DNA from: Idiomarina sp.
Lineage (GTDB): Bacteria > Pseudomonadota > Gammaproteobacteria > Enterobacterales > Alteromonadaceae
DNA: 64,000 nucleotides
Direction: 5' to 3'
Assembly (NCBI GenBank): GCA_020832105.1
Contig: JAFIFH010000008.1
Span: forward strand, 1-64,000
Shown here: positions 41,029 through 64,000 of the stretch, one piece after another
How positions within the stretch are numbered: position 1 is the stretch's first letter
Layout of the letters: every line of letters starts with the position of its first letter
The notes under the pieces: model-generated
Seen by the model: only the letters and a program-made list of their open reading frames with translations
Database searches by the model: none
Told to the model about the DNA's origin: nothing
Program-made: the position numbers and the translations under genes

Positions 41029-41610
41029 TTACAACAAATGACCAAATTTTTTGGTCTTGGTTGCCAAATAATGCTTGTTGTGTGCTGAAGCAGCCACTTG
41101 ATGAGGCACTCGCTCAACCACGTCGATGCCAGCGTCCTGCAGCGACTGCAACTTATCTGGATTGTTAGTCAGTAAACGTATCCGCTTGATATGCATAGCT
41201 TCAAGCATTGAAGCTGCGACATTATAGTCGCGAGCGTCAGGTAGAAAGCCGAGGATCTCGTTGGCTTCTACGGTATCCAGGCCCTTGTCCTGTTCAGCAT
41301 ATGCACGCAGTTTATTGATCAAGCCAATCCCACGCCCTTCCTGGCGCAGGTAGACGATGACGCCGCGGCCTTCGTCTGCAACTTTTTGCATGGCCGCTTC
41401 AAGCTGCGGCCCACAATCACAGCGCTCACTAAACAACGCATCACCGGTCAGACACTCGGAATGAACACGGGTCAGCACGGGTTCGCCATCACTGTAGTCA
41501 CCCATTGCCAGAGCAACATGCTCCTGGCCTGACTCTGTTTCGAAACCGATTAGTTCAAATTCCCCAAACGGGGTCGGGAGTTTGGTTCTCGCCGCAACAT
41601 TTACCTGCAT
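41029..41610 (-). CDS. ribA: GTP cyclohydrolase II
   Basis: RibA, 193 residues, which opens GTP to the pyrimidine precursor of riboflavin. The ATG at 41610 gives MQVNVAARTKLPTPFGEF, co-linear with E. coli MQLKRVAEAKLPTPWGDF; an in-frame GTG at 41619 is an alternative. Zinc cysteines are in HSECLTGDALFSERCDCG; the RQEGRGIG loop and LLTNNPDK block are intact. It stands alone, with no FMN riboswitch visible upstream. Confidence 0.96.
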   Translation of the reverse strand: MQVNVAARTKLPTPFGEFELIGFETESGQEHVALAMGDYSDGEPVLTRVHSECLTGDALFSERCDCGPQLEAAMQKVADEGRGVIVYLRQEGRGIGLINKLRAYAEQDKGLDTVEANEILGFLPDARDYNVAASMLEAMHIKRIRLLTNNPDKLQSLQDAGIDVVERVPHQVAASAHNKHYLATKTKKFGHLL

Positions 41611-41942
41611 GACGCTCACTTCAACCTGCTACTAGGGCTGCCTGACACCAATGAGGTTATAAGACACTGACGCAGAATCATCGTTACGCACGACCCGGCA
41701 GCATTGTGCGCGATGTAGTGATGACTCAAGGACTCATAACTGTAATGGCAGGAGTATACCAAAGTTGTCAAGCACACGCGCACAGATTAAGCCCACCAGT
41801 AAACTCTTTTTTAAGCTTCAGCGTATACACTATCTAATTACCGCCAGTTCATGGTTCGCCATTCAAGGGCTATTTCAAACCCATGGTCAACCAGGCAGCG
41901 CCTGGCTTCTGTGTAAGCCGGACCACAAAGGATCTGTAAGTC
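41611..41942. other. Intergenic region between ribA and the esterase gene
   Basis: 332 bp holding the promoters of the two divergent genes. No open reading frame, riboswitch-like fold or terminator stands out. Confidence 0.5.
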
Positions 41943-46330: not shown

Positions 46331-46357
46331 AGCCCCGCACATGCGGGGCTTTTTTTA
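46331..46357 (+). terminator. Intrinsic terminator of the M3 peptidase gene
   Basis: Stem 46331-46339 with 46342-46350 and a run of seven T residues. The stop codon of the converging tal gene (46355-46357) falls in the T tract. On the minus strand it has no T run, so it serves the plus strand only. Confidence 0.9.
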
Positions 46358-47929: not shown

Positions 47930-49182
47930 TCGATGTCTGATTCCATGTGTCCCATCTCCCAGTCCACCTCTTTACCCATCGCATTGCGCGGTATCTCTGA
48001 GCACAACGTATAGTGCTGAGGGATCTCAGCGATACTAAGGTGCTCAGCAGCATAAGCTTTCAGGTGTTTAACGAGATGCTGCTGCTCACTTGCCGTCATT
48101 TGCTGGTCCACCACAATCAGTGCCTTCAGCCCGCGACTATTGTCTGTCGCCAATAAACGTACTCTGGCATCGAGTACCTCCGGGTGCTCCGCTAATACCA
48201 TAGCGATACGCTGCGGAAACACATTCTTGCCGTTGACCATAATCGCCCCGTCTTTACGACCGCACGGCCTAAAATTGTGCTCATCGACCCACTCAAGTTG
48301 ATCAGGCACTTCTACGGTGCACGCTTGTATTGTGTCATACAATGTATCGTCACTGTGTTTGCGCCAGCGCGGCAGCAGCTTATAGGGCAGGTACGGCTGT
48401 TCTCGCATGCCGATACCGGAGGTGTCAGTGCTGCCGTAAACCTCTATCACTCGCTCTACTCCTTGTTGTTGCAAGGCAACCAGGGTTTGCTGCGGACAAG
48501 GGCCGGTAGAGCATACAATAGTGACCCGCTTGGGCATCATACCGCCGCGTTTTGCCAGCTCTTGCAAAAAAGACGGGAAAGCAATGACCACGTCTCCGGC
48601 TTTGAGCTGACGCCCTATCACCAATCCGAAACTACGCAACCCCCGCACAACCTCACAGTTGGATGCTTCTGGCAGCAACACCGAAAACAAAAATCCGTAA
48701 ATATGGTGTGCAGGCACCAATGAAACAATGCGTTTGGCAGGGGTAGGTAAGGCCGTCAGGTACTGTTGGAAATGATTCGCTTCAGCTTGCAGGCTTGGGA
48801 ATTGATGTGTAATCGTTTGCGCAGGCCCCGTGGAGCCCGACGTTTGAAAGCGGATGTCGGTACTTGCTAACTGCCGACTTTGCAGCACAATATCGGCCCA
48901 CTCACCCAGGGTGTATCGGCGCAGCAAATAGTCTTCAATACCACTGGATTCAATGCAAAAGTAATTTACCACGCGGGTCGCCAACGCCATCCACTCAAAG
49001 GAGTCAATGAGCACCTCGTCTGGGTGGTTTTGCGCGCGCTCAGCCAGGGTAAGACGTGTCTCGGCACCAAGGGTGAGCCCCTTGAGCTGAGTATGACCTT
49101 GTTGCCGGAGTTGGCTAAGTTCGTCCTGAACTAAAGCGCTGAGTACAGCTACTGCAGCGCTTTTTGATAGACTGCCCTGCAT
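47926..49182 (-). CDS. pcl: p-Coumarate:CoA ligase for PYP chromophore
   Basis: A 418-residue AMP-forming acyl-CoA ligase, shorter than plant 4CL as is usual for PYP-linked enzymes. The adenylation signature TSGSTGP is at 114-120, YGSTDTSG near 249-256, GRKDGAIMVNGKNV at 308-321, and the C-terminal lysine region NAMGKEVD is intact. It would convert p-coumarate to p-coumaroyl-CoA, the donor for PYP Cys69. The ATG at 49182 shares one base with the pyp stop (TGATG), so the genes are translationally coupled; the end overlaps tal by 4 bp (ATGA). Confidence 0.92.
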   Translation of the reverse strand: MQGSLSKSAAVAVLSALVQDELSQLRQQGHTQLKGLTLGAETRLTLAERAQNHPDEVLIDSFEWMALATRVVNYFCIESSGIEDYLLRRYTLGEWADIVLQSRQLASTDIRFQTSGSTGPAQTITHQFPSLQAEANHFQQYLTALPTPAKRIVSLVPAHHIYGFLFSVLLPEASNCEVVRGLRSFGLVIGRQLKAGDVVIAFPSFLQELAKRGGMMPKRVTIVCSTGPCPQQTLVALQQQGVERVIEVYGSTDTSGIGMREQPYLPYKLLPRWRKHSDDTLYDTIQACTVEVPDQLEWVDEHNFRPCGRKDGAIMVNGKNVFPQRIAMVLAEHPEVLDARVRLLATDNSRGLKALIVVDQQMTASEQQHLVKHLKAYAAEHLSIAEIPQHYTLCSEIPRNAMGKEVDWEMGHMESDIE

Positions 49183-49559
49183 CAAAGGCGCTTCACAAAT
49201 ACCCAGAATGCGTCACCTGTCAGTGCTTTTTTCATATGCACTTTCACTTTGGTGGGCTTCATTTCATAGTCGAAGGTGTATTCAAACATGGTATTCAGGT
49301 CGTTGCTTTTAACCCCTTGATCAAACTTGCCCTTGAACTGAGGGCTGTTGGTGCAAGGTGCGACTTCTTTGAAAAAATCCTTACCAATAACTTTGCCTGG
49401 ATCACGCCCAGTGATATCCCCTTCTGCAGCGTTGTACTGCAGTATTTTCCCGCTGGCATCCAGCTTAATAGCGCCAAAAGCAACATCATCCAACTGCGAG
49501 TCACCCATTCGTGCCAGCTTGTTCTCAATATCATCACTACCGAATTGTACGATTTCCAT
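49182..49559 (-). CDS. pyp: Photoactive yellow protein
   Basis: A 125-residue PAS-fold blue-light receptor, nearly the same length and pattern as Halorhodospira halophila PYP. The chromophore Cys69 lies in [10 protein letters not shown], and the hydrogen-bond network residues Tyr42, Glu46, Thr50 and Arg52 are all present ([16 protein letters not shown]). The C-terminal block [20 protein letters not shown] is also conserved. Start ATG has AGGAG at 7 bp. It is first gene of pyp-pcl-tal. The photocycle and partner are not encoded in the sequence; no dedicated transducer gene is obvious nearby. Confidence 0.97.
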
Positions 49560-49736: not shown

Positions 49737-50912
49737 TTATTGCTGAATGATAATTGCACTGTTCATGGTTCCGTTCTGAACAACGCTCATGCTGCTGGCG
49801 TCAGACATTTGCGAGGCTTGAATCAGGTTCATGCTACCAACCTGAACCAGTGACGCATAGCCACCATCACCGCCCATTTCAAAAGCACCGCCGCCAATAC
49901 CTGAGATCAGGTTATTATCACCATACTGACCCAAATTAAACGAGTTGTATTGGTTCGAAACCAGCAGGTTGAGGCTGTTTAATTCGCCAAATTGCTCTAT
50001 TTCACCGTAGTAGTTACGACGGTCTGTGAAGCGCACTTCTGCTGTGTTGTCGTCACCCCACTGATGGCTGCCTAAGCCATTCTGTGGACCGCCAACGTGT
50101 ACGCTCAGAGTGTTATTGTTCCCTTGCTGTAAGCTGCCAACATTTGTACCAAAGTGTGCCGGCTGAGTCAGGGTCATGGTGTTGTCCGAGCCAAACTGTT
50201 CTGACCGCACGTAGTTACCGTCACCGCGCAAAGCGATATCAGTCAAGTTGTCATTGCCATCCTGGGCTACAAAAACATCATTATCGGTGGAAATAGCACC
50301 TGAGTTACGTGCATAGATATCGACGTAAATTTCGTTAGATTGACCGCTCTGCGAGGTGTAAATGTATGAGTCATCTGCACCGTTGATATCAAGCTGCGAT
50401 AGGTTGTCGTTTCCACTTTGCAGGGCACCGACATCGTTACCATCGCCATCGACCATCAGTGAAATGCTGTTGTCGTCACCGAACTGGTCACTGATGATGC
50501 CGTTGTAATCACCATAACTTCTGACCACAATATCATTAGCACCGGATTGATACATCTGTGCATAACTGTCGTTACCCTCAAGATAGTAGTCAATAAAGTT
50601 TCCGCCGGTGCCCAGCTGGGTGAGTTCCAGGCTATTACCGTCCCCTTGCTGCCAGGTCAGCGCTTCATTCTGGTAGCCGTCCTGTAAGGCGATTAAAGAG
50701 CTTCCTACACCCGCCTGCGTGGATTCCAGATCATTCTCAACACCAATTTGGCTTGCCGCAATTGAGAGACCTACCCCAATTTGAGTCAACGTAGCCAGGT
50801 TGTCGTCACCGGTTTGCGTTAACACTACAGAGTTCGCCATTGCCGCTGAAGATAACGCCATGGAAATGCCTAAAGCTATCATCGATTTTTTAATTGTTAG
50901 AGTTGCCATCAT
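49737..50912 (-). CDS. Large curlin-repeat (CsgA/CsgB-like) exported protein
   Basis: A 391-residue protein with a signal peptide (about 1-25, cleaved after AAMA). The mature part is about fifteen degenerate curlin repeats of roughly 22-24 residues built on Q-x-G-x-x-N-x5-Q (for example TQTGDDNLATLTQ, LQDGYQNEALTWQ, SEQFGSDNTMTLTQ). It lacks Lys and has very few Arg, and is rich in Asn, Gln, Gly, Asp and Ser, as amyloid curli subunits are. It is much longer than CsgA (about 150). No csgDEFG genes lie in the window. ATG at 50912 follows AAAGGAAG. Confidence 0.85.
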   Translation of the reverse strand: MMATLTIKKSMIALGISMALSSAAMANSVVLTQTGDDNLATLTQIGVGLSIAASQIGVENDLESTQAGVGSSLIALQDGYQNEALTWQQGDGNSLELTQLGTGGNFIDYYLEGNDSYAQMYQSGANDIVVRSYGDYNGIISDQFGDDNSISLMVDGDGNDVGALQSGNDNLSQLDINGADDSYIYTSQSGQSNEIYVDIYARNSGAISTDNDVFVAQDGNDNLTDIALRGDGNYVRSEQFGSDNTMTLTQPAHFGTNVGSLQQGNNNTLSVHVGGPQNGLGSHQWGDDNTAEVRFTDRRNYYGEIEQFGELNSLNLLVSNQYNSFNLGQYGDNNLISGIGGGAFEMGGDGGYASLVQVGSMNLIQASQMSDASSMSVVQNGTMNSAIIIQQ

Positions 50913-51290
50913 TATGTCTTCCTTTGCTGTACCCGGCACCAGCCAGCCAGATAGAGAATTCTTTTAAATTGAGTGATATTCACTTGGTTTCAGCGCGAGT
51001 CTTGGTGCGCTGTGGCTAAGTTTAAGACTAATTCTGGGGCTAACAATCGTATTTTAAGGCTAGAAACAAGTTGGGGTTTGGGGGGATTAATGAGACTAAC
51101 TAATTGAATAGTAGCGTAAAGCGCAGCTTAAGCTACGCGAGCCCCAGAGCTAAGCGCTAAGCCGAATGGATTAGAATGCGGTGTTAATCATCGGCAGGCC
51201 AGCGATTGTGCTGGTTTGTTGATTGGCTGTCGCCGTATTGCTGATAAAGCGATAGTATGGATTAAAGCATTAAGCTGGACGAGAGATATC
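50913..51290. other. Divergent intergenic region between curlin-repeat and Tag-like genes
   Basis: 378 bp. I see no gene. It holds the AGTGA-N3-TCACT inverted repeat (50972-50984), the palindrome AGCTTAAGCT (51125-51134) and a purine-rich run TTGGGGTTTGGGGGGATTAA near 51071. No promoter is unambiguous. Confidence 0.5.
50972..50984. promoter_or_regulatory. Inverted repeat upstream of the curlin-repeat gene
   Basis: AGTGA-TAT-TCACT, perfect 5-bp arms with a 3-bp spacer, about 60 bp before the curlin start. The spacing is too short for a CRP site. It is a candidate operator only. Confidence 0.3.
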
Positions 51291-51962
51291 ATGACATTCG
51301 AACATTTTTATCAGCGCGCCGTTGAGCGCAAAGGCGGCGAGCAAGCGGTGCGTGAACGCCTGCCATATGTAGCGAGTGCTGCAGAACTTGCCGCGCAAAA
51401 GGACGACAGATACCTAGCGGTCATGACCAAGTGTGTGTTTCGTGCCGGCTTCGTGTGGCGAGTGATTGAAAATAAGTGGCCGGGATTTGAAGAGGCGTTT
51501 AGCGGGTTTGTGCCCGCCTATTGGCAACAGGTGCCGCCCGAGAAACTTGAGGCGCTGGCTAAAGACGAGCGCATTGTGCGCAACATGCAGAAAATAGCCA
51601 CAGTACCGCGTAACGCATTTATGATCATGGAAGCCGCAGAACAACACGGGAGTTTCGGCCAGTTTCTTGCTGACTGGCCTGCGGATGATCAGGTCGGGCT
51701 GCTGCTATGGCTGAAGAAACACGGGGCTCGCCTCGGTGGTGCCAGTGCGCAGTACTTTTTACGCTTAGTGGGTTATGACGGCTATATTCTCTCTCCAGAC
51801 GTTATCACCGCATTACAAAACCACAACCTAGTGGACGCCACCCCGGGCACGCAAAAAGCGCTCAAACAGGCACAGAAAGCATTTAACCAGTTTCATCAAG
51901 AGACTGCGTTGCCATACGCACACCTGTCAAAAATTCTCTCGCTAACGGTTGATGCGCGCTAA
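51291..51962 (+). CDS. DNA-3-methyladenine glycosylase I family protein
   Basis: A 223-residue protein with the helical pattern of the Tag/HhH-GPD superfamily (base-excision repair of alkylated adenine). The block TKCVFRAGFVWRVIENKWPGFEEAFSGF and the RIVRNMQKIATVPRNA segment correspond to Tag family blocks. The N-terminal zinc-ligand pattern of E. coli Tag (MERCGW) is not seen, so substrate range may differ. The ATG at 51291 is after GAGAG; an upstream extension to 51216 is unlikely. Divergent from the curlin gene. Confidence 0.75.
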   Translation: MTFEHFYQRAVERKGGEQAVRERLPYVASAAELAAQKDDRYLAVMTKCVFRAGFVWRVIENKWPGFEEAFSGFVPAYWQQVPPEKLEALAKDERIVRNMQKIATVPRNAFMIMEAAEQHGSFGQFLADWPADDQVGLLLWLKKHGARLGGASAQYFLRLVGYDGYILSPDVITALQNHNLVDATPGTQKALKQAQKAFNQFHQETALPYAHLSKILSLTVDAR

Positions 51963-51971
51963 ACACGAATG

Positions 51972-52589
51972 TTAGTACTCACTTACTCCGTGGTCGGGGT
52001 GATATAACCAGCGTTGACCTCCCAGGTTAAAGCGCAGGCCACGGTCCTCCCATCTCAGCGCGTTATAGTTTAGGTGTTGCGGCGACAACTGATCATGCTT
52101 AGGTACTTTGATGAAATAATTTGCATCTTCAACATGTGCGCCCAGCTGAGAAACCGCAGTCACGGACAATAATTGTGCACCAGAAGGCGGTCGGTGACGA
52201 AATACCAAGTGAGTTGACGCTGGATGCCAGCGATCGATGGACAATCCGCCTCCATACTGAAACGCGGCAGGCCTTGGCGCATCATCGCCAATTCGATGAA
52301 TCCAGCCAGCAGTGTGGGCCGAACCGACGGTTGTTACCGCAAGATACTCTCCATTCGGTGACATTTCAGCCCGCACAAAACGGTCATGGGCAGAAAACTC
52401 AGTGGTTAAGTTAACCCTGACGCGATTAGGCAACTGACTTCGAGTTAATAAAACATTCCCTCGGTAATCACGCACCTGATGGTCAATCACTGTCAGCTCC
52501 ATGGTTTCACTGCTGACTCTGTGGCCTTCTGGTGAACAACCGATGAGTAGCAAAAATGCCGTTAGTACAACTAAAATACGACTATTCAT
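51972..52589 (-). CDS. Lipoprotein with beta-propeller-like repeats
   Basis: A 205-residue predicted lipoprotein (lipobox LLIGC). I do not recognise the family. The blocks RAEMSPNGEYLAVTTVGS and DRWHPASTHLVFRHRPPSGAQLLSV look like WD40/PD40-type blades (S-P-N-G and H-P-x-S turns), followed by LRWEDRGLRFNLGG. A few blades would not close a full propeller, so it may be a fragment-like domain. It converges on the Tag-like gene with 10 bp between the stops. Confidence 0.55.
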   Translation of the reverse strand: MNSRILVVLTAFLLLIGCSPEGHRVSSETMELTVIDHQVRDYRGNVLLTRSQLPNRVRVNLTTEFSAHDRFVRAEMSPNGEYLAVTTVGSAHTAGWIHRIGDDAPRPAAFQYGGGLSIDRWHPASTHLVFRHRPPSGAQLLSVTAVSQLGAHVEDANYFIKVPKHDQLSPQHLNYNALRWEDRGLRFNLGGQRWLYHPDHGVSEY

Positions 52590-52753
52590 AGTTCCTCAGC
52601 AAAGGCTTTGGTTAAACAACATAAATTGCACAGAACACCAATAACTCGCCAACAGTGGAAATTGCTATGTCCTGATAGTTGCGATTTATCCTACCTTAAC
52701 TAGCCTTTTCAACAAAGGCTGATATTAACTAATTGTTGTTTTCGGGAGGCAAT

Positions 52754-53422
52754 ATGCGCCCTCACTATATTCCCTGGATAATTTTCTGGGTTCCACTCAT
52801 TGCGGTGAATGGCGCCTACCTGATTGGGTTATGGGAGGGCGTGGCGCACCAATGCAACCCCTATATTGACGGATGTACCACTATCAGCCGGGCGGCAAGG
52901 GAAGGCAACGCTATCTTCTTCTTTCGCGGCCTGATGATGCCCCTGGCGATGTTGATGATTGTGTTCTGGTATCTGCAGAGCATCTGGTTAGGCCAAATGA
53001 GGCAGCGCTCCCAACGTTACATTTTTATCATTGCTGCAATTGGCGCATTATTTCTCATTTTATACGTAGACTTTCTCGGCACCGACGGTGATTTCAATCG
53101 CTTCTTACGCCGATACGGGGTGATTTTCTATTTCGGTCTCACTGTTCTTGCCCAGATGATGAGCATCGCCAGCGTTCATAAATTGGGTGACACGCTAGAT
53201 AAGAAAGTACGCACCTACATGTACGTTCAACTTTCATTTATCGCCATTTGCTGGTTGTTAGCCATGGCAAACCTGATACTTAAAGAGATGGGCCTTGTGT
53301 GGGAACAAGAAATGGAAAATGTTATTGAATGGCACTTTGCCCTGTTCATGTCACTCTACTTCCCATTCGCGGCACTCATGTGGAAACGCACCAATTTCAA
53401 ATGGCATTTCAGCCTAAAATAG
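52754..53422 (+). CDS. Six-helix membrane protein, Frag1/DRAM/Sfk1-like
   Basis: A 222-residue integral membrane protein with six predicted helices. The segment CNPYIDGCTTISRAAREGNAIFFFRG between helices 1 and 2 matches the YISxxxR loop of the Frag1/DRAM/Sfk1 family, where it resembles SISxTGxxxPE. Function in bacteria is unknown. The ATG at 52754 follows GGGAGG, an excellent ribosome site. It converges on nfrA with 5 bp between the stops, so the two share no promoter. Confidence 0.65.
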   Translation: MRPHYIPWIIFWVPLIAVNGAYLIGLWEGVAHQCNPYIDGCTTISRAAREGNAIFFFRGLMMPLAMLMIVFWYLQSIWLGQMRQRSQRYIFIIAAIGALFLILYVDFLGTDGDFNRFLRRYGVIFYFGLTVLAQMMSIASVHKLGDTLDKKVRTYMYVQLSFIAICWLLAMANLILKEMGLVWEQEMENVIEWHFALFMSLYFPFAALMWKRTNFKWHFSLK

Positions 53423-53427
53423 TGCGC

Positions 53428-56400
53428 TTAGAAAAAGACAGCAAAGCGCAATAACAGGGCATCGTCCGAAACACCTGCAATGTCGCTGTCGATGACGTGT
53501 TGCCATTCAAGGCCAAGCTCGCTGAAAGCCCGCCAACCGGCATACCGTGAGTGACCTAACGGCTGCCGCCAGGTCACTCCGAGCCCGAACCGGGTGTCCG
53601 ACAAGCCTTGCTGATCAAAGGTATCGTTTGTCCACTGATACTGAATAAATGGGTAGGCACCAACCTTAAAATAGCTGCGTTGCGCCCCTGCCAGCTGGAA
53701 GGTCGGCTGGTAACGAGCGTACACACTGGAGGTTTGCTCGTCTGGGAAAAACACCCAGTCGAGATACAGGCTGTGATCAACAAATCGCTTGTTCTCAGCC
53801 CAGCCTTTCTGCTCGTTGTAACCCGCCAGCAGGTCAGTGGAACCCCGCACATAGAGCCTTGTCCCCTCTCCGTCAAAAGAGCTTCGTGCAGCGAGACGGA
53901 CAAACGTCAGGTGCGCTGCCATAGGCTGCCACGCGATACCAAGATCGAGGTTGTTACTGTCAAAAAAGAAGCTGTCACCAGCAGAGAGCAGGTTTGCGAA
54001 TACCGTAAGGTTGGTGCGCCGTTCACGGCCATAATCCAGGTCATATTCAAGGGTGGTACTGAGAAAATAATCCGCCTGAAAATCATTGCCGGTCGCCTGT
54101 GACACGCTGGTGCTCTCACCAAGCCAGCCTGCAATGGATGCGCTAAATGGTGAGCTCACCTGACGATAGAAACGCTGGCTATGAGTCAGTATCTCGGTAC
54201 CTTGTTGCCCTTGAGTCAAACCTGTGTCTATCACATCCCGTAATTGCTGCCTGGCGACCCTCTCTCTCCGTGCTTGTGCATTGGTATAAGCGGCCTGCTG
54301 CAAATTATCACCGTTGCGGGTTTCCGGGTAAGCTGCAAAGACCTGATCAAACTTGCGTGCCGCTGAACCATAGCCCCCTAACCTTTCCAAGACGAAGGCT
54401 TGTGCCAGCGGGTAATATGGCTCCTCAGGGTTTTCATCAGCCAAGCGCTCCAACCAACTAAGTTGCTGCTCCAGGTCGCCGTCCATTTCTGCCAGGCGTA
54501 AGCGCAATGGTAATATGGTGCGTACATCATCGCTACGCTCTACCCGCCGCAAAGCTGCTGTAACCGACTCACGGTCATTACGACGTAGGGCGATGTCCAC
54601 TCCAATGCTTATTTCATCTTCAGTTAATGGGTCGTCTAGTGCCTGCCAGTGCGCCCAGGCATCATCGTGCTGACCCAACGCTAATAGGGCTGACAGTTGC
54701 AATGGTTTGTATATACCCCGGTCAACGGCTGATGAAAGATTGTCCAGGTAACTTAGGCTTTTATGGTAGTCGGACGACTCATGGGCCAGCACTGCCCCGC
54801 GCAACCATTCATCATCGCCCCATTCAGCACTATATTGCTCCAGCGCGGTTAGCCGCTCACCCGGCGTACCCAAACAATAACTGTCTAAGTGATAAGCTGC
54901 CCGGCTGGATAACTGTTGGCGAATGCGCAGCGCTGATTCACAGTCCTGGCGCTGCAACAACACCTCACTCACCTGAGTTGCCAGGCGCCGGTCTGGCCAT
55001 TGCTGAGCGGCATCAACCAATACATCACTATGAATATTCATGTGAGCACGCTCAATACCTATGCTGACTCGCTCGCTGATAGCGTCATTCACAAGAAACT
55101 CCCCTCGATCACCCCAGCTCTCTTTCACTGCAATATGCGCTAAGTCCTCATAGCGCTGCTCGCTTAATAAGATAAAGGTGTGGTCATCCAGGGACGCGAG
55201 ATCACTATGTTCACGCCAGTTTCGCGCACTGAGCACAAGGGCCTGCTCTGTTTGGCCATCCTGGTAATACGCCTGGGCAAGGCGGCGTTGCAGCTGAGTA
55301 TCTTTCGCCCCATAGGCTTCAAGAACCCGAATCAGATCGCCCCGCTGATGGTCGTGACGATAGTGATCTACCAACAGATGAACCCGACTACGCTCCGCTT
55401 CTTGAGTACTAAAGGACACTCGCTCAAGAAGCTCAGAATCGCCAATTTGTTGCGCCAACATCAAATAGTGACGTTCCTCACTCCGCTCAGGGTTGCATTG
55501 CTTGAGTCGAGCATTAGCGTATTCAACCTGTTGGTCCTGAATAAGCAGCTCTGCATGCGACAAACAGTCGACCGGCAAGCGCTCTGCCAGACTCAACGCA
55601 AGTGCCACATCGCGATGGTCTACAGCCAATTGATAAAGTACTAACCCCCACGCCTGATTAAGAGACCTTTGGTCATCTATTTTGCTTAGCAGCTCAATGA
55701 GTTCCTCGGTCCGCTCCGCGCCAATCATTCGGTTAACGGTCATATTCAGCGCATTGTCGAACTCATCTTGTAAAGACAATAGCCAATACTCAATCCCGGA
55801 AAACTGTTCACTCAAGGCCAGTGCATGTATGAGCTGACCTCGTTGATACGCATTACACGCCTGCTCGTGACCCGCTGGTCGGCGGCAGATGGGCTCGAGC
55901 ACCGCCACGATCTCATCGGTGCCACCTCGACGAAACAGATACTCCACTACCTGGTCGATAAGTTGGGTAGAGACCTGCTCAGCGCTTATTACTTCAGTTA
56001 CCCTGACTAACTGTGCGTTGTTCAGCGCCCCACCGTGTTCGCTCAGGTAAGCACGCGCAAATGCCGCTTGCATATCTTCATCAAGCTGCTCGAGTTGGTC
56101 AAAGAATTGCCCGGCGCTGAGCCCAGCCAGACGATCCGAACGCCCTAATAAGGCAGCATAGATACGTCTGGCCTGAGGGTCCGTAATGTACGGTTGGAGT
56201 GTTTCAAACGCCCGTTGAGGGGTGTCATTTGCAATTAATAGCTCGACATGGTGCAACACCAGAGGCAAATGGTCCGGCACAATGTTGCGAGCACGCTCCA
56301 CCTCCACCAAGGCTTCTTCCAGCCGCCCGACAGACGCCAGCGCGTAGCTTTTATCTACATATGGAAAAACGCGGAACCATTGAAAATCACTAAGCCCATT

Positions 56401-56544
56401 CGCAATCCCCGCGTTGGGCTCCAGCAATGCAGAGGCTGTGCTCAATGGCGCCGACAGGCCGTCCTCATCCAACTGCGTGTCTGCGTACACCAGGCTACAA
56501 AGCCCGTATAGTGAGATCAGCAATGCGATTTTAGTCAGTTTCAT
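53428..56544 (-). CDS. nfrA: NfrA-like outer-membrane TPR/beta-barrel glycan exporter
   Basis: A 1038-residue protein similar in architecture to E. coli NfrA, the outer-membrane part of the N4-receptor glycan system. A signal peptide (about 1-21, cleaved after VYA) is followed by a long alpha-solenoid of degenerate TPR-like helices (about 40-780). The C-terminal about 230 residues are beta-strand rich (YFLSTTLEYDLDYGRE, WRAFSELGLEW) and end in Phe (LLLRFAVFF), as an outer-membrane barrel would. This is the BcsC/PgaA-like layout. The ATG at 56544 overlaps nfrB by 14 bp; it is the last gene of wecB-nfrB-nfrA. Confidence 0.82.
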   Translation of the reverse strand: MKLTKIALLISLYGLCSLVYADTQLDEDGLSAPLSTASALLEPNAGIANGLSDFQWFRVFPYVDKSYALASVGRLEEALVEVERARNIVPDHLPLVLHHVELLIANDTPQRAFETLQPYITDPQARRIYAALLGRSDRLAGLSAGQFFDQLEQLDEDMQAAFARAYLSEHGGALNNAQLVRVTEVISAEQVSTQLIDQVVEYLFRRGGTDEIVAVLEPICRRPAGHEQACNAYQRGQLIHALALSEQFSGIEYWLLSLQDEFDNALNMTVNRMIGAERTEELIELLSKIDDQRSLNQAWGLVLYQLAVDHRDVALALSLAERLPVDCLSHAELLIQDQQVEYANARLKQCNPERSEERHYLMLAQQIGDSELLERVSFSTQEAERSRVHLLVDHYRHDHQRGDLIRVLEAYGAKDTQLQRRLAQAYYQDGQTEQALVLSARNWREHSDLASLDDHTFILLSEQRYEDLAHIAVKESWGDRGEFLVNDAISERVSIGIERAHMNIHSDVLVDAAQQWPDRRLATQVSEVLLQRQDCESALRIRQQLSSRAAYHLDSYCLGTPGERLTALEQYSAEWGDDEWLRGAVLAHESSDYHKSLSYLDNLSSAVDRGIYKPLQLSALLALGQHDDAWAHWQALDDPLTEDEISIGVDIALRRNDRESVTAALRRVERSDDVRTILPLRLRLAEMDGDLEQQLSWLERLADENPEEPYYPLAQAFVLERLGGYGSAARKFDQVFAAYPETRNGDNLQQAAYTNAQARRERVARQQLRDVIDTGLTQGQQGTEILTHSQRFYRQVSSPFSASIAGWLGESTSVSQATGNDFQADYFLSTTLEYDLDYGRERRTNLTVFANLLSAGDSFFFDSNNLDLGIAWQPMAAHLTFVRLAARSSFDGEGTRLYVRGSTDLLAGYNEQKGWAENKRFVDHSLYLDWVFFPDEQTSSVYARYQPTFQLAGAQRSYFKVGAYPFIQYQWTNDTFDQQGLSDTRFGLGVTWRQPLGHSRYAGWRAFSELGLEWQHVIDSDIAGVSDDALLLRFAVFF

Positions 56545-58702
56545 GCGGCATTCCATCCTTCAGCAGCGCGCCCTGGAACCTCAGTGCTTCGTCTATGGCG
56601 CTTTCAGTGGCAAACCCTTGCTGTATCAGGTAATGGCCAAAACGCTCAGCATGTGGCTCGCTAAAATACGACAAGGTGGCTTGCTTAATCACCGCCGGCT
56701 GCACCAGCCCCCGACTGACCAACGTTTGGCCCAGAGACTCGCGGGACGCGTAGTAAAGATCCCTGCGCTTAACCCAGGCCGATCCAAACTGCGCGGATTT
56801 AGGGAAGTAATTTTCAGGCGGCGCTTGCTTATCGCCAAGGTAGAGATAGCGCAAGCCCAGACTGACAGCTCCGTCCTGCACCAGAATGACATCAATTTTT
56901 AGACCCAGGGTGCGTCGTAAGCTTCCCTTCACCACTGCACTCAGAGGTGTTTCGCTACCAATCGTTAGCCGCTTCGAAGCCTCATCGAAAGCCAGTGGAA
57001 TAATATAATACTTGTACGCCAGGGCTTGGGGTAAACGCTGCACTAATGCCGGGTCCAACTCGCGTAAATCAACATAATCAAAGGGCATTTTATAGTGCGC
57101 CGCAATGGTTTGGCATAACTGCTGTAAAGTCACATGGCCCTGCTGGACCAGGTAAACCCCAAGCCGCGTCCCAAACGGGCGCTTTAGTAAACAGTCTTCA
57201 AGTAACGCCTGGCTGATCAGCCCGTTTTCAACCAGTAGCTGACCTAACAGCGGCTTACGGGGTCCCATCACCAAAGGGAATTCATGGGTGGTTTTATCCC
57301 AGGCAACTTTCCTCGCATCCCCAACCTGGACGACTAATTTGATGGCACGAATCACCGCAAAGAAGTTCACTAGGTTACTCCAGAATATACGCGGAATCGC
57401 AAGCACCCCCTGCACCACCCCATAGTACTGGGTGACGAATATGAAACGTTGCAGGATCCGGTTCAACACCAAAATCAGGTTAGCGACCAGTAAAAAAGCC
57501 ACCAGCCCATCGCCATGAAAAATTGATAAGAACTGGTAGCTGTCAGGAATAACCAACTGATAAATAAGAATCAGTACCAGTTGGATAAACACCACCATGG
57601 TCATAAAACTAAGGATATTGGCAAACAATCCACGCCGATCGCGCCACAGGAAAAAGTTCATCACCCCACTTTTGGTCCATCGGTGGGTGGTAAAACCCTG
57701 AAACACGATGCCCACAATCCAGCGTGACTTTTGCTTCACCGCATCACTGAATTTGGCTGGAAAATGCTCGCGCACACAAATCAATCGACTGGTTTTATCG
57801 CCAGTTAGCATCCGTTTTTCACGTAATGTGGCTTGTTCGTCTTCTACCGAGTAGCGAACAAAAATCTCTTTCATTCCCCATTTTCTCAGCCGAAAACCAA
57901 TATCGTAATCCTCGGTTAGAGATTGAGTGTCAAAAGCAAGACCGTCCCCTTCTGCCATCAACTTTAAAATCGCTCGGCGACTAAACCCCGTCCCCACCCC
58001 GGCACTGGGCACCTGACCGGCTAGGGCCTCCCGCACTGGAATGTCTTTGCCATGCATTTCGGCAAATTCGTCGGCGTAGTGTGATGCTGTCGGGCTAATC
58101 CCTGAGTGAAGGTAGGGATAGACAGGTACCTGAATCAGGTCATTATTCGCCAGTAGGTAATTAAATAATCGCAGCTCCATAGGCGAAATCATATCCTCAG
58201 CATCATGCAGCACATAACCAGAAAATTGGATGTTATTGGCACGTTCAAACTCGATAATCGATGCAAGAATATTGTTCAAACAGTCAGACTTAGACGTCGG
58301 GCCTGGCAGTGCGCATACCACTTTGTGGACATGGTCATACTCAGCACACACAGCGTCCACATCCTCTTGGGTAGCAGTATCATTGGGGTAGGTACCGACA
58401 AATATCTCATAGTTCTCATAGTCAATGTTTTCCGCAGCCGTTTTTGCCATCGGCCCCACCACACCAACTTCATTCCACGCAGGTACCATGATTGCGATAG
58501 GTCGTTGCTTTGCGGCATACAACCTTTTAGAGTCCGCCCTCGGCTGCTTACGATAAATGGTTACCCGGCGGATAAACGTGCGTATCCAGTAATAGATATC
58601 AATGAATAAATCATCCATACCAAACACGAACATCAACACCAGCAAGCCAATGCTGATGTATTTAAGGACGTATAAGTAAACTACAAAAATATCGAGAATC
58701 AT
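56531..58702 (-). CDS. nfrB: NfrB-like processive glycosyltransferase with MshEN-type c-di-GMP modules
   Basis: A 723-residue inner-membrane family-2 glycosyltransferase. One or two N-terminal helices precede a GT2 core: IAIMVPAWNE at 69-78, the DxD-like HDAED at 166-170, TEDYD at 263-267 and KQKSRWIVG (QxxRW) at 323-331. Several helices lie at about 360-455. The C-terminus carries MshEN-type duplications: LLGQLLVENG and TRLGVYLVQQG (485-522) and, after a spacer, SLGQTLVSRG and RFGHYLIQQG (656-696). MshEN domains bind c-di-GMP; in E. coli NfrB that controls synthesis of a ManNAc-containing glycan. It overlaps wecB by 4 bp. Confidence 0.87.
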   Translation of the reverse strand: MILDIFVVYLYVLKYISIGLLVLMFVFGMDDLFIDIYYWIRTFIRRVTIYRKQPRADSKRLYAAKQRPIAIMVPAWNEVGVVGPMAKTAAENIDYENYEIFVGTYPNDTATQEDVDAVCAEYDHVHKVVCALPGPTSKSDCLNNILASIIEFERANNIQFSGYVLHDAEDMISPMELRLFNYLLANNDLIQVPVYPYLHSGISPTASHYADEFAEMHGKDIPVREALAGQVPSAGVGTGFSRRAILKLMAEGDGLAFDTQSLTEDYDIGFRLRKWGMKEIFVRYSVEDEQATLREKRMLTGDKTSRLICVREHFPAKFSDAVKQKSRWIVGIVFQGFTTHRWTKSGVMNFFLWRDRRGLFANILSFMTMVVFIQLVLILIYQLVIPDSYQFLSIFHGDGLVAFLLVANLILVLNRILQRFIFVTQYYGVVQGVLAIPRIFWSNLVNFFAVIRAIKLVVQVGDARKVAWDKTTHEFPLVMGPRKPLLGQLLVENGLISQALLEDCLLKRPFGTRLGVYLVQQGHVTLQQLCQTIAAHYKMPFDYVDLRELDPALVQRLPQALAYKYYIIPLAFDEASKRLTIGSETPLSAVVKGSLRRTLGLKIDVILVQDGAVSLGLRYLYLGDKQAPPENYFPKSAQFGSAWVKRRDLYYASRESLGQTLVSRGLVQPAVIKQATLSYFSEPHAERFGHYLIQQGFATESAIDEALRFQGALLKDGMPHETD

Positions 58703-59772
58703 GAGCGCATGTCACTTGTAGTTGAATATAGATCCGCGACAATGCGCTGGGCAGCGTATCCATCACCATATAAGTGATTGGGTGAGGATGGCGCTTGCTC
58801 GAGATATTCGCAAACCCTCAGGTAGATAGCTTGCTCATCATCAGGCGCGGCCAGCACTGACATTTGTGCGTCGATGGATTCCATTCGCTCTGTATAATGG
58901 CGCACAACAACAGTTCTAACGCCAAAAGAAGGTGCTTCTTCCTGGATGCCGCCGGAATCTGTGATCACGCAACGGGCATTTTTAATCGCTAATTGCAGTT
59001 CCCGGTAACTCAGGGGCTGGTTCAGCTTAACGTTGCTGAGGTTAGCGAGTTGGCTTTGAATCTGCTGTTGTAGATCAGGGTTTGCATGCATGACGAAGTT
59101 AAAGGTGAGCTCTGGCTTATCACCAGCCAGGCGCTTAATCGCGGCACATATGGTTTGCATATGCGGCCAGTTCTCACGTCGGTGACAGGTTACCAGCACC
59201 TCTGCCGCGCCTTGCTCGCCGACATCACTGCCAACCAGAATACGTTGTGCGTCGACCACTGTATTACCGGTGACGAGGATCTGATGTTCCGCCACGCCCT
59301 CAAGCAACAGGTTGTTACGTGCGCTCTTCAATGGCGCATAGTGACGAGTAGTCAACTGGCTGACGAGTTTACGGTTGGCTTCTTCAGGGAATGGGCTGTT
59401 AAGGTTGCAGCTACGTAGCCCAGCCTCGACATGAGCTATCACTGGTACCCGGGCATAAAACGCAGCAAGGGCTCCTGCAAGGGTTGTACTGGTATCACCG
59501 TGAACTAATACAATGTGCGGGTTGCACTGGTGAATAGCCGCTGACAGAGAGTCAGTTAGACCTGCAAGTAATCCCCCGAGTGATGTGGAGACAGGTCTTT
59601 GTAGAATAATCTCGGGGTGAATCCCAAACTCAGCGAACGCAGAGTCTGCGATAGAGGTGTGCTGGCCACTATGCGCCCAAACAACTGCAAAATTTGCTCT
59701 CAAAGCCAGATAGACAGGGGCCAGCTTAATAATTTCAGGTCGAGTCCCTGAAACCAGCATGCAGTGTTGCAT
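58699..59772 (-). CDS. wecB: UDP-GlcNAc 2-epimerase (non-hydrolysing), Nfr-operon copy
   Basis: A 357-residue epimerase converting UDP-GlcNAc to UDP-ManNAc, the donor needed for the Nfr glycan. It has SGTRPEIIK at 8-16, VHGDTSTT, HVEAGLRS, TCHRRENW and DSGGIQEEAPSFG, all diagnostic. Two C-terminal blocks differ from E. coli WecB: RHYTERMES where RDTTERPEA is usual, and MHANP for HPNP, so some kinetics may be altered. It is the first gene of the operon, with AAGGA 7 bp before the ATG. No enterobacterial common antigen genes surround it, supporting a dedicated role. Confidence 0.9.
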   Translation of the reverse strand: MQHCMLVSGTRPEIIKLAPVYLALRANFAVVWAHSGQHTSIADSAFAEFGIHPEIILQRPVSTSLGGLLAGLTDSLSAAIHQCNPHIVLVHGDTSTTLAGALAAFYARVPVIAHVEAGLRSCNLNSPFPEEANRKLVSQLTTRHYAPLKSARNNLLLEGVAEHQILVTGNTVVDAQRILVGSDVGEQGAAEVLVTCHRRENWPHMQTICAAIKRLAGDKPELTFNFVMHANPDLQQQIQSQLANLSNVKLNQPLSYRELQLAIKNARCVITDSGGIQEEAPSFGVRTVVVRHYTERMESIDAQMSVLAAPDDEQAIYLRVCEYLEQAPSSPNHLYGDGYAAQRIVADLYSTTSDMRS

Positions 59773-59899
59773 GGGCGTTCCTTAATAATTATTATTAAGT
59801 GAACTTTAGTCTCACCGACTTCTAAAGCAATAAAACCCTCGCCCATTTCTAGTTCTAAACAAATAAACAGCGCTTTGTCCTAGGACGTTTTTCTAGTAA

Positions 59900-60760
59900 C
59901 TAACCAACCGCCAGGCGACCGCGTTTGATTTGATACATATGGCTGTCGGCGTGGCTGAGTAATGTATCAGCGTCTTCTCCATCAGCCGGGTAGCAGGCCA
60001 CACCAACGCTACATGAGGGCATGCTGACGCCCTCAAATTCTTTGCCTAACGGCGCTGCGATAACGGTGGCTATCACCTCTACGACGGTGGCTATCCCATT
60101 ATGATCACGGATATCGGTGAGTAGAATCGTGAATTCATCGCCGCCCATCCGAGCAACCGTGTCGGTTTCCCGAATACAGCCCTCTAATCTCCGCGCCACC
60201 TCACATAGTATTCGATCGCCCATGGCATGGCCGTGTAGGTCATTAATCAGTTTAAAGTCGTTCAAGTCCAAAAACAGCAACGCTAATTGAGTCCGATTAC
60301 GATGCGCCGAGTGCAGTGCTGATTCAAGGTTTGTCTTAAATAGTGCTCGATTGCTCAGGCCGGTCAGAGGATCATGATGGGCCATATAACGCAGTTCGTC
60401 TTCAGCTTGGTGTAGCGCAGTAACATTGCGTGCTACGCCTATTCGCACACCTTCTTCTTCATACCAGCGCGCAGCCCATAAGATATATACAACTTTACCG
60501 TCTTTATGAATATACCGATTGCGAAAATCCAGGTGCGGCTGACCATTCATAACACGAACAATCGATGCCCGGGTGGCAGCCAGATCTTCGGCATGCATAT
60601 AGTTGGTGATCGGGGTGCCAATCAGCTCACTGGACTTATAGCCCAACAACGTCTCGCAAGCATCACTGACAAACACGATCTGGTTATCACGGTCGACAAC
60701 AAAGACCGTGTCTAACATCAGGTGGACAAGTTTTGGATAAAGCGCTTCTAAATCAATCAT
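59900..60760 (-). CDS. PAS-GGDEF diguanylate cyclase
   Basis: A 286-residue soluble protein: PAS domain at about 5-118 (VFVVDRDNQIVFVSDACETLLGY) joined to a GGDEF domain (about 122-284). GGDEF is intact at 206-210 with an RETD inhibitory site at 197-200. It should make c-di-GMP. No membrane helix is present. It lies 127 bp upstream of wecB in the same direction, so it may be in or near the Nfr operon and supply the c-di-GMP sensed by NfrB. The PAS ligand is not identifiable. No strong ribosome site precedes the ATG. Confidence 0.9.
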   Translation of the reverse strand: MIDLEALYPKLVHLMLDTVFVVDRDNQIVFVSDACETLLGYKSSELIGTPITNYMHAEDLAATRASIVRVMNGQPHLDFRNRYIHKDGKVVYILWAARWYEEEGVRIGVARNVTALHQAEDELRYMAHHDPLTGLSNRALFKTNLESALHSAHRNRTQLALLFLDLNDFKLINDLHGHAMGDRILCEVARRLEGCIRETDTVARMGGDEFTILLTDIRDHNGIATVVEVIATVIAAPLGKEFEGVSMPSCSVGVACYPADGEDADTLLSHADSHMYQIKRGRLAVG

Positions 60761-61015
60761 AGTAAACGGTTAACGACCACAGCAATCAGCTGCAATGGCT
60801 AACAACACGTAGCGGGGAGGACGCACATTTTTCATCCTAAAAAATCCTTATAGGGAGAAACTCCAAAAGGTCATTAATTAACCATGAGCTGCAATGCTTG
60901 TAAACTATTTCCCAAAAACGAGTCAAAAATTAACTCGAAAGATTCTGAGCCATTTAAAAATCAGCAATTTTCTTCATGGCTTTTCGGCCATTATTGTTTA
61001 AAAGACTTCAACCAA

Positions 61016-61456
61016 TTATCCGTCATTCCAGTATTTTTGCATTTCAATGAAGGTGAAGGAGGCGGACCATGTAATTAGGACAAACCCAACCAGACTCTGT
61101 GTACCATAGAGAAAGCGCACATGCCCTAAGGGGATCATGTCCCCGTAGCCTAATGTGGTGTAGGTCACCGCAGACATGAATATATAATCGAGGAAGGTCA
61201 TGGTCTCATATCCCGTCACCGTTCCAACATGACTCACTTCAACCAGCCACCAGGCAGTAATACCAAACATCCAGATAGCGAACACATGAACCACGAGCAA
61301 ACCGAATATCAGTAGCAGCATACGCCGCCGGTGAGAAAGTTCGGACTTGGCACCTACACAACTAAAAAAAGTGAATGATTCATAATGCAGCATCACAGCA
61401 GTGATAACCGTGATCAAAGTGGCAAAAAAAGCGATTAGATGTTCTTGCTCAAGCAT
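61016..61456 (-). CDS. Two-pore-helix potassium-type ion channel
   Basis: A 146-residue membrane protein with three hydrophobic helices. TTLGYGDMIPLG near residues 97-108 is the K-channel selectivity filter (TxGYGD), preceded by a pore helix (DYIFMSAVTY) and followed by the inner helix. There is no RCK domain or voltage sensor. Ion_trans_2 family; potassium selectivity is likely. The ATG at 61456 follows GAGAG. Confidence 0.85.
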   Translation of the reverse strand: MLEQEHLIAFFATLITVITAVMLHYESFTFFSCVGAKSELSHRRRMLLLIFGLLVVHVFAIWMFGITAWWLVEVSHVGTVTGYETMTFLDYIFMSAVTYTTLGYGDMIPLGHVRFLYGTQSLVGFVLITWSASFTFIEMQKYWNDG

Positions 61457-61578
61457 TGTTATCTCTCAAAAAACTTTGTGCCCGTTGCAACACCTACGGA
61501 AAACGGACTTTCGTTCAGGGTATATTCTTCCTTCATTTGATTCTCTCCCAGTGAAACCAGGTTGCAAGAGCAATACGC

Positions 61579-62496
61579 TCATCGCTTGCTCGAGTATACA
61601 CAAAGCGCGGTCACAGTCACCAGAATCAGTGCCATACCAAAGACTTGCATACCTGCCAGGCTCTCATCCAAAAACAAAATACCGAACACTGAAGCGGTAA
61701 CCGGCTCAACCATCGCTACAATAGACGCTAAAGCCGGTGCGGTGTAATTCAAACCGAGCACGTAAAAAATAAACGACAGTCCGGCACCAAGCACACCTAA
61801 CAGGAGGAAAAGTGGCAAACGAGCGGCAGTCAACACATCTACGAATTCGGCTAAGTCGCTGGCCAGGAACATGATCGCAGTAAGTACCGCAAAAGCGATG
61901 GTCAGAATTGACTGTGGACTACCGTGCGGTGCTGCGTATTTAAAGCCGAAAATAAACAGTGCGTAACACACTCCTGACAACAGCCCTGCCCCGGCCGCAG
62001 CCAGTGTAACCTGGCCCGCATCCAGGTCATATACGCCGGTCAACAAAACCACCCCAAGCATCACTAACCCAATAGCGACACATTTTATGACGGTGATTTG
62101 CTCAAGCTTAAAAATAAACGAGACTATATAGACAAATATGGGCGCGCAGTACATCAAGGTTGCGGCAACGGCGACACTGCCCTCAGCAATGCTGACAAAA
62201 TAGAAGGTAAAGTTCCCGGCCACGCCGACACCTGCGACTATCGACCAAAACCATAGCTTGCGGCTTCCAAACCCGCTTCGTTGAGGTCGCAAGGCAAGCC
62301 ATACCCCCACGAACAACAACCCAATACCTCCGCGATATAGTGACACCACCAGCGGGCTCCAGTCGTCACCCGTAAGAATGCCGCCAATACCACCTGCAAC
62401 ACCCCAGCAAAAAGCGGCCAGAGCGACAAGAGAGGTGCTCCAATGCCTGGCTGATAAATTGGGTTTCTTAGGATGAATTGAATGCCAGAGCATCAT
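61579..62496 (-). CDS. EamA/DMT-family transporter
   Basis: A 305-residue inner-membrane protein with ten helices and the internal EamA repeat (two copies of about 140 residues). Helix 1 begins LVALAAFCWGVAGGIGGIL; the second half ends FGILFLDESLAGMQVFGMALILVTV, the classic EamA closing block. Probably exports small metabolites such as amino acids; the substrate cannot be read. AGGGG precedes the ATG by 6 bp. Single gene. Confidence 0.9.
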   Translation of the reverse strand: MMLWHSIHPKKPNLSARHWSTSLVALAAFCWGVAGGIGGILTGDDWSPLVVSLYRGGIGLLFVGVWLALRPQRSGFGSRKLWFWSIVAGVGVAGNFTFYFVSIAEGSVAVAATLMYCAPIFVYIVSFIFKLEQITVIKCVAIGLVMLGVVLLTGVYDLDAGQVTLAAAGAGLLSGVCYALFIFGFKYAAPHGSPQSILTIAFAVLTAIMFLASDLAEFVDVLTAARLPLFLLLGVLGAGLSFIFYVLGLNYTAPALASIVAMVEPVTASVFGILFLDESLAGMQVFGMALILVTVTALCVYSSKR

Positions 62497-62653
62497 GCTA
62501 ATCCCCTCGTTTTATCGTCCTTCGCGTATAAGGGAATAAAGCATAGCAACCGCAGGTTCGCCATGACGTGTGCCTACTTTTACACTCCTTAACCATGCTT
62601 ACTGAAGTCTAATCTCGGCTTACGTCAGGGATGCCGGGGTTGGGTAGAAAGCT

Positions 62654-63343
62654 TTAGGCTACCACACCGAACAGCGAACCAACCCCAGCGGTCAAAGCCA
62701 TCGCCAGACCGCCCCAAAAAGTGACTCGGAAGGCAGCTTTTAATACCGGGGCATCGCCGGCTTTGGCGGCAATGGAACCTAGTAGAGAGAGAAATAGTAA
62801 TGAACTGGCTGGGACCGCCCACATGAGTAGGGAAGCAGGCACCAGCCAGACAACCACCAGCGGAAGTGCCGCGCCCACGGTAAATGTGCTTGCCGATAAG
62901 AAAGCTGAGCCCAATGGGCGCGGCGTGGAGACAGCTGAAATACCCAGTTCATCGCGCGCGTGAGCTCCCAATGCGTCATGGCGCATCAACTGTGTGGCTA
63001 CTTGAGACGCGAGCGCTGGGTCTAAGCCTCGTTTTACATAAATTGCAGCCAACTCTAATTGCTCTTGCAACGGCGCTTCGGCCAGCTCGCGACTTTCCTT
63101 GGCTAAATCAGCCTGTTCTGTGTCAGCTTGCGAACTCACCGACACATACTCACCCGCAGCCATCGACATCGCGCCAGCGACAAGCCCTGCCCCACCTGCA
63201 ATTAACACCGCAGTGGAGTCGGCACCAGCGGCCGCTACCCCTAAAATCAAGCTAGCGGTTGACACAATGCCATCGTTTGCCCCAAGCACTGCTGCTCGCA
63301 GTAAGCCAATGCGATTAGTTTTATGGATCTCTATGTGTCTCAT
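62654..63343 (-). CDS. VIT1/CCC1-family divalent metal transporter
   Basis: A 229-residue membrane protein. The ATG at 63343 (after AGGA at 8 bp) gives MRHIEIHKTNRIGLLRAAVLGANDGIVSTASLILG, the VIT1 signature. GAMSMAAGEYVSVSSQADTEQADL is the second conserved block, and three helices close the C-terminus. The family moves iron or manganese across membranes, from cytoplasm to outside or into vesicles. The next gene upstream, on the same strand, is a DUF1294 protein, 22 bp away, so they are probably one transcript. Confidence 0.92.
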   Translation of the reverse strand: MRHIEIHKTNRIGLLRAAVLGANDGIVSTASLILGVAAAGADSTAVLIAGGAGLVAGAMSMAAGEYVSVSSQADTEQADLAKESRELAEAPLQEQLELAAIYVKRGLDPALASQVATQLMRHDALGAHARDELGISAVSTPRPLGSAFLSASTFTVGAALPLVVVWLVPASLLMWAVPASSLLFLSLLGSIAAKAGDAPVLKAAFRVTFWGGLAMALTAGVGSLFGVVA

Positions 63344-63365
63344 ATGACATTCCTGCGCTATTGAG

Positions 63366-63740
63366 TTACATGACGCCCGCAATCAACCCTCTAAAGGTGT
63401 ATCCCGCGCTTGATGCCAACAGCCAAAAGAACACGGCAAAGTTAAGTATTATCATTAGCCAGAGTATCAAGCGGAAGGGTTGCTTACGTGTTTTATGGCG
63501 TAATTTGTGTTGCGCAATCAGCGCCCCAGGCCAGCCTCCAAGCAATGACAGCACATGTAAGGTACTTTCGGGGGTTCTGCGAGCGCCTTTGCGGGTTGAT
63601 GCCGACTTGTCCAAAGCGTATGAAATAAAGGTGATTACGCTGGCGACGACGTACACACCCAGCACTAGCCACGGTACCTTGCCCGCAAGCACTGCGGTAC
63701 TCACAATCAACAAAAATAGCGCTGGGATAATCACTAACAT
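63366..63740 (-). CDS. DUF1294 membrane protein
   Basis: A 124-residue protein of the DUF1294 family, often found alone or fused to cold-shock domains. The ATG at 63740 follows AAGG and gives a helical N-terminus (MLVIIPALFLLIVS); the diagnostic blocks are YALDKSASTRKGARRTPESTLH, LLGGWPGALIAQHKLRHKTRKQPFR and a last helix. A longer frame to 63845 has no supporting ribosome site. Function unknown. It precedes the VIT1-like gene by 22 bp. Confidence 0.85.
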   Translation of the reverse strand: MLVIIPALFLLIVSTAVLAGKVPWLVLGVYVVASVITFISYALDKSASTRKGARRTPESTLHVLSLLGGWPGALIAQHKLRHKTRKQPFRLILWLMIILNFAVFFWLLASSAGYTFRGLIAGVM

Positions 63741-63850
63741 AGGGGCCTTATAAGCTTGAACGCATTGGTACAAGGAGTATGCCAGGTACTGTCGCCAGTG
63801 ACAGCTCCCATGATGGGTGCTCGTCCATGGTTCGATGTCTACCACAGCTA

Positions 63851-64000
63851 TCAGCCGTGTAATTTACGAGACCTGATAAAGTTGGACACGACATAGTAAA
63901 CGGCGAACCCGACACAGCCGAGCATGAGTGCACCGAAGGGGATGAAAATCACGTCAAGAGCGGCTGTAGACGAGCTTCGTGCAGGAGTGAACAGCGAATG
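63851..64000 (-). CDS. Possible C-terminal fragment of a membrane protein at the window edge
   Basis: An open frame of 49 codons enters from the right edge and stops at TGA 63851-63853. It reads HSLFTPARSSSTAALD, then a hydrophobic helix (VIFIPFGALMLGCVGFAVYY) and a basic tail (SNFIRSRKLHG). A membrane-helix-plus-basic-tail pattern looks real, but no family is recognisable from so short a piece. Confidence 0.35.
   Translation of the reverse strand, partial: HSLFTPARSSSTAALDVIFIPFGALMLGCVGFAVYYVVSNFIRSRKLHG

Follow-up and report, generated by a model that had tools for sequence, protein, structure and literature searches.

Is a diguanylate cyclase gene that lies immediately upstream of a glycan operon a working part of that operon, or a neighbour with a history of its own? 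This question is raised by a 64,000-nucleotide stretch of Idiomarina sp. DNA (contig JAFIFH010000008.1, positions 1 to 64,000; hereafter the window), which carries the genes wecB, nfrB and nfrA together with a PAS-GGDEF cyclase gene. The original prediction was that the production and the use of the signal, cyclic diguanylate (c-di-GMP), may be encoded together here. Our best reading is that wecB, nfrB and nfrA are one Nfr-type operon, well formed and ordinary in design. The cyclase probably lies beside this operon independently and is no conserved partner of it, because its orthologues occur in sister genomes that lack nfrB, among other neighbours.

The wecB-nfrB-nfrA operon

The four open reading frames were found where they had been predicted, all on the minus strand, in the order cyclase, 127-bp gap, wecB, nfrB, nfrA. 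The first gene of the operon proper, wecB (58699..59772), encodes a UDP-N-acetylglucosamine (UDP-GlcNAc) 2-epimerase of 357 aa and overlaps nfrB by 4 bp. An inner-membrane synthase of glycosyltransferase family 2 (GT2), 723 aa long and with a predicted c-di-GMP-binding MshEN region at its C-terminus, is encoded by nfrB (56531..58702). This gene in turn overlaps nfrA (53428..56544), which encodes an outer-membrane TPR/beta-barrel exporter of 1038 aa. The nfrA frame in full spans 53428-56556, and the overlap of 14 bp, also confirmed, is obtained when the inner ATG at 56544 is taken as the start.

Family scores and a residue alignment with E. coli NfrB uphold the Nfr identity and the MshEN modules. 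NfrB scores 959.6 bits against the NCBIfam model NF008411 over residues 6-712, which does not reach the cut-off of 1170, and 115.1 and 112.5 bits against GT2 models of Pfam. The Pfam MshEN model (25.9 bits, cut-off 23.1) and the NCBIfam c-di-GMP motif (57.6, cut-off 38) both match, as do solved MshEN domains over residues 480-618. The protein is 48% identical to an E. coli NfrB, and its active-site residues D167, T263-E264-D265 and Q324..W328 align with D169, TED and QxxRW of the E. coli enzyme. The available text of PMC8669469 puts the Kd of c-di-GMP binding in E. coli near 1 uM and describes E. coli NfrB mutants at D169, D267, W330, L490, G491 and L537. Five of these six positions are identical in the window's protein: three belong to the transferase (D167, D265, W328) and two to the MshEN region (L486, G487). 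The sixth, L537, is I533. Since NfrB keeps these five, the best reading is that it would be a c-di-GMP-activated synthase of an N-acetylmannosamine (ManNAc) glycan, with NfrA as the exporter. The structure model of NfrB is weak (mean predicted local distance difference test, pLDDT, 63.5).

A further feature of NfrB is a second MshEN-type pair of 24-residue motifs at residues 656 and 687 (range 656-710). The same pair was seen in 11 of 11 aligned NfrB proteins, that of E. coli included, by a pattern match with no control. The parts of the 2021 papers PMC8669469 and PMC8669472 available to us mention one MshEN domain in NfrB.

NfrA is recognised by the NfrA_C model (PF13283, 29.2 bits, cut-off 25). 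It scores 79.1 bits against the equivalog model NF007302, far under the cut-off of 1223, and TPR_14 reaches 19.3 bits, under its cut-off of 23.5. In the predicted structure helical repeats occupy residues 53-779, and 12 strands come after them, between 801 and 1037, at moderate model confidence (mean pLDDT 75.1, predicted template modelling score 0.37). A phmmer search with NfrA against PDB sequences returned no match.

WecB scores 297.1 bits against TIGR00236 (cut-off 210.15). Among solved structures its best relative is matched with an E-value of 3e-63, and 1f6d with 9e-60. The lysine of the GTRPExIK motif is retained; the available part of PMC8669472 describes the counterpart in E. coli WecB as required for activity (K15A). 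The genome holds a second wecB on another contig, and directly next to it a gene for a wecC-type UDP-ManNAc dehydrogenase (NF008286, 696.2 bits, cut-off 459); the pair lies in a different glycan cluster, whose surrounding glycan genes were named by reading. Because the wecC-type gene follows directly, the second wecB has another evident use, and because that copy sits in another cluster, the wecB of the nfr operon is plausibly dedicated to it. The original prediction was right that wecB lies within the operon, and its dedication is plausible, although the linkage as such had already been published.

Among the closest known systems is the E. coli NfrB-NfrA-YbcH apparatus, which, together with WecB/NfrC and in response to c-di-GMP, makes the NGR glycan, the receptor of phage N4. 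The two share a GT2-MshEN synthase, a TPR/barrel exporter and the order nfrB before nfrA. The nfrB/nfrA overlap is 14 bp in the window and in E. coli alike, as the available text of PMC8669469 also has it, and the epimerase requirement described for E. coli in the accessible parts of PMC8669469 and PMC8669472 is to be expected here too. The E. coli operon is given in the former as nfrB-nfrA-ybcH, with no cyclase gene, whereas the window has wecB in the operon, no ybcH, and an adjoining cyclase.

Also close are the wecB-nfrB-nfrA-ybcH clusters of Pseudomonas. As in the window, wecB immediately precedes nfrB there and overlaps it by 4 bp, and a GGDEF gene is nearby, though downstream rather than upstream. 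We surveyed NfrB loci of named genomes as the best 80 of 109 confirmed loci, a choice that favours close matches (76 are labelled Pseudomonas). In this survey wecB is directly upstream of nfrB on the same strand in 69 of 80 loci, while 11 have no wecB there, and the 4-bp overlap is found in 65 of the 69. The arrangement is largely published already: according to PMC8669469 (mBio 2021), wecB directly adjoins nfrB in those nfrB-bearing organisms that lack a wecB in other pathways, and the nfr operon of most pseudomonads has a GGDEF gene associated with it. Clustering of nfrA, nfrB and wecB in Achromobacter is described in the part of PMC8669472 (mBio 2021) available to us. We found no paper in the open-licence literature that treats NfrB and Idiomarina together.

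Do the nfr-linked epimerase genes have one origin? The epimerase tree was built from 61 of 116 extracted sequences, with the remainder of L004-L082 and three duplicates left out; 16 of the 17 selected Pseudomonas-type loci gave a row. Hits whose alignment fell below 300 residues or whose frame lay outside 320-460 aa had already been dropped at extraction. In this tree the window wecB, on a long branch (end branch 2.89), groups with the nfr-linked wecB of another family of the order (G341 and G181, support 100/89), apart from Pseudomonas. Separate origins of nfr-linked wecB were considered and dropped, as a single origin is not rejected by the approximately unbiased test (p-AU 0.11; 0.156 without L172). 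A placement of the window wecB with the wecB of its own genus is not rejected either (p-AU 0.088).

The main new detail of the window operon is the missing ybcH. A YbcH-like (DUF4434) frame is present in 94 of 96 loci, wherever in each stretch it lies; the profile used derives from E. coli and four surveyed loci and leans towards these. The frame is missing from the window and from L064, a locus truncated at a contig end. The available text of PMC8669469 describes E. coli ybcH as nonessential and dispensable for phage infection, and its deletion as suppressing the motility effect only in part.

The PAS-GGDEF cyclase gene and its neighbours

The cyclase gene (59900..60760, minus strand) lies upstream of wecB, as predicted, and encodes 286 aa with matches to GGDEF (158.2 bits) and PAS_3 (52.5 bits). 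The GGDEF motif is intact and is accompanied by RETD, which we take to be a motif of the I-site type (read from the translation). The 127-bp gap between this gene and wecB (59773..59899) contains AAGGA, a ribosome-binding-like sequence, before the wecB start. A consensus scan listed no minus-strand terminator-like site in 59773-59899, so that co-transcription is possible. Over the scanned region 10 terminator-like sites were found versus 7.2 expected, and 7 promoter-like sites versus 8.5 expected in 53300-61100, one of them in the gap; the promoter scan is not above chance.

If the cyclase were a partner of nfr, it should stay beside the nfr genes across genomes and be missing from genomes that lack them. 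Among 16 other genomes of the genus nfrB is found in none (E 1e-40), and an orthologue of the cyclase (66-71% identity) is found in five. Further matches to the cyclase in these genomes are 33-44% identical, and the 44% match covers the GGDEF domain only. The gene after the orthologue is yaeQ in two cases, a PLD-like gene in two, and a Na/Ca exchanger gene followed by a PLD-like gene in one. Three of the five keep the window's order and orientation of the cyclase, ribA and an M13 peptidase gene, and there the cyclase is 1.6-7.5 kb away from ribA. In the window itself 18.3 kb, including the nfr genes and others, separate the cyclase from ribA (41029-41619). This looks like a resident cyclase that the nfr operon came to lie beside, although the reverse order of events, a cyclase arriving beside nfr, is conceivable.

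As an observation in its own right, the cyclase is directly followed by yaeQ in two sister genomes, while in a third yaeQ adjoins the gene of photoactive yellow protein (PYP) (L112, L113, L162); the neighbourhood has therefore been reshuffled within the genus.

Other nfr loci speak to the same question. The nearest NfrB is that of Idiomarina aquatica (L003; 56% identity), the sister of the window's NfrB in the tree (100/100). Unlike the window, this locus has a ybcH-like gene, its wecB stands on the opposite strand at a distance of about 3.7 kb, and no GGDEF gene turned up within 6 kb of nfrB; the best-scoring I. aquatica match to the window cyclase lies elsewhere in the genome and is 39% identical. 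In the order to which the window belongs, nfrB is rare, occurring in 15 of 394 genomes (E 1e-100, own genome included). In 15 other nfrB loci of the order (L118-L120, L147-L158), wecB is directly upstream of nfrB in two, and the 6-kb search detected a GGDEF gene at a single locus, about 5 kb downstream. The searches for GGDEF genes used the window's GGDEF domain with tblastn at 1e-5, which distant members may escape, and some loci end at contig ends (L156 has about 1.8 kb before nfrB).

How surprising is a GGDEF neighbour? Since this 3.03-Mb genome gives 36 matches to GGDEF, partial ones included, it is not very surprising; assuming one gene per kb, we infer that a GGDEF neighbour on either side would fall by chance to roughly 2-3% of operons. 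Genome-wide, the best match to GGDEF also happens to lie in the window (6958-7431), inside a very long frame at 3685-8277.

The strongest competing explanation is that the cyclase is a true local partner, co-transcribed with wecB-nfrB-nfrA and supplying c-di-GMP directly to NfrB in the manner of DgcJ, whose local control in E. coli is reported in the available text of PMC8669469. The shared strand, the 127-bp gap and its lack of a listed terminator-like site are in its favour, and so is the survey. Of its 79 loci (I. aquatica left out; 76 are labelled Pseudomonas), 65 have a GGDEF gene no more than 6 kb from nfrB; all 65 genes are downstream and none upstream, and all but one, that is 64, share the strand of nfrB. 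However, the architecture differs at the one Pseudomonas locus checked (L005), where the downstream gene encodes a protein with a GGEEF motif, without a PAS match and, by reading, with hydrophobic stretches. Taken with the orthologues in genomes without nfrB, the negative 6-kb searches for GGDEF genes around nfrB in I. aquatica and in 14 of the 15 loci of the order, and the estimate for chance neighbours, we regard such a partnership as unlikely. The prediction of a signalling unit is thus left unsupported by the orthologues without nfrB and by I. aquatica, while functional coupling of the cyclase with NfrB is possible and unproven.

Mechanism and alternative readings

We consider it likely that the window holds an Nfr-type wecB-nfrB-nfrA operon making a c-di-GMP-dependent ManNAc polymer, with a cyclase inherited independently. 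Residue conservation and the E. coli experiments suggest the following steps. WecB would convert UDP-GlcNAc to UDP-ManNAc, which NfrB in the membrane would polymerise upon binding of c-di-GMP to the MshEN region at its C-terminus. NfrA would take the polymer across the outer membrane to the cell surface. The cyclase, inherited in the genus independently of nfr, may feed NfrB like any active cyclase and may share a transcript with the nfr genes.

Several results weigh against this account. NfrB and NfrA both stay under their equivalog cut-offs, therefore the polymer could differ. NfrA is only 20-27% identical to its relatives, and the 50 PDB rows listed in its structural search gave helical-repeat proteins, no polysaccharide exporter among them, whose TM-scores normalised by query length do not exceed 0.18. 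The operon has no ybcH, and there is no DUF4434 (Pfam) match in the window or in the whole, 92.8%-complete assembly. The published rule, that wecB is linked to nfrB where there is no other wecB, does not account for the linkage here, as a second wecB is present. Finally, the position of the cyclase upstream on the same strand, with no terminator-like site between, is compatible with coupling.

Two further proposals remain to be weighed. The cyclase, wecB, nfrB and nfrA may form a self-contained cassette read as one transcript, in which nfr landed downstream of a resident cyclase and ybcH was dropped, but we hold this to be doubtful. More improbable still is a glycan other than a ManNAc polymer, with a changed synthase specificity and WecB serving another product, since the equivalog shortfalls, the long WecB branch and the absent ybcH, which would fit it, are set against a WecB well over its cut-off with its GTRPExIK lysine kept and a wecB/nfrB overlap that implies linked use.

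The surroundings and what the locus means

Base composition was considered as a sign of foreign origin, and the G+C content of nfrA (53.2%), nfrB (48.9%) and wecB (51.6%) beside the 51.3% of the window gives no sign of recent transfer. A clean empty-site comparison was not obtained: two sister genomes (G010 and G011) have relatives of both flanking genes (52733-53422 and 61016-61456), on different contigs in each. A terminator-like hairpin from the consensus scan (60919..60937, minus strand) lies between an ion-channel gene and the cyclase gene, upstream of the latter. No RNA family reached its gathering threshold in 51000-64000.

The window also carries, at 46355-49559, a PYP gene (TIGR02373, 201.8 bits, cut-off 143.05) with genes for an aromatic amino acid lyase and an AMP-binding enzyme. 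In the available text of PMC12826048, PYP is described as lowering biofilm formation in Idiomarina loihiensis, and a GGDEF mechanism is proposed. Light control of the present cyclase through the PYP cluster was considered and is unsupported: in the 16 sister genomes PYP occurs in four, the cyclase in five and both in none, so that the two are together only in the window's own genome. At 49737-50939 is a gene for a curlin-repeat protein (79.9 bits), an amyloid-type surface protein; the PYP gene is 177 bp and nfrA 2.5 kb away from it.

For the reading of such loci, gene adjacency alone can mislead on local c-di-GMP signalling, as comparison with sister genomes here indicates a cyclase that is independent of its neighbours. 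The window extends the Nfr glycan system to a genus in which none of the 16 other genomes examined has nfrB, and it offers a natural case of an Nfr operon without ybcH. Should the four genes prove to be one cassette, the polymer would be made and exported without the periplasmic YbcH.

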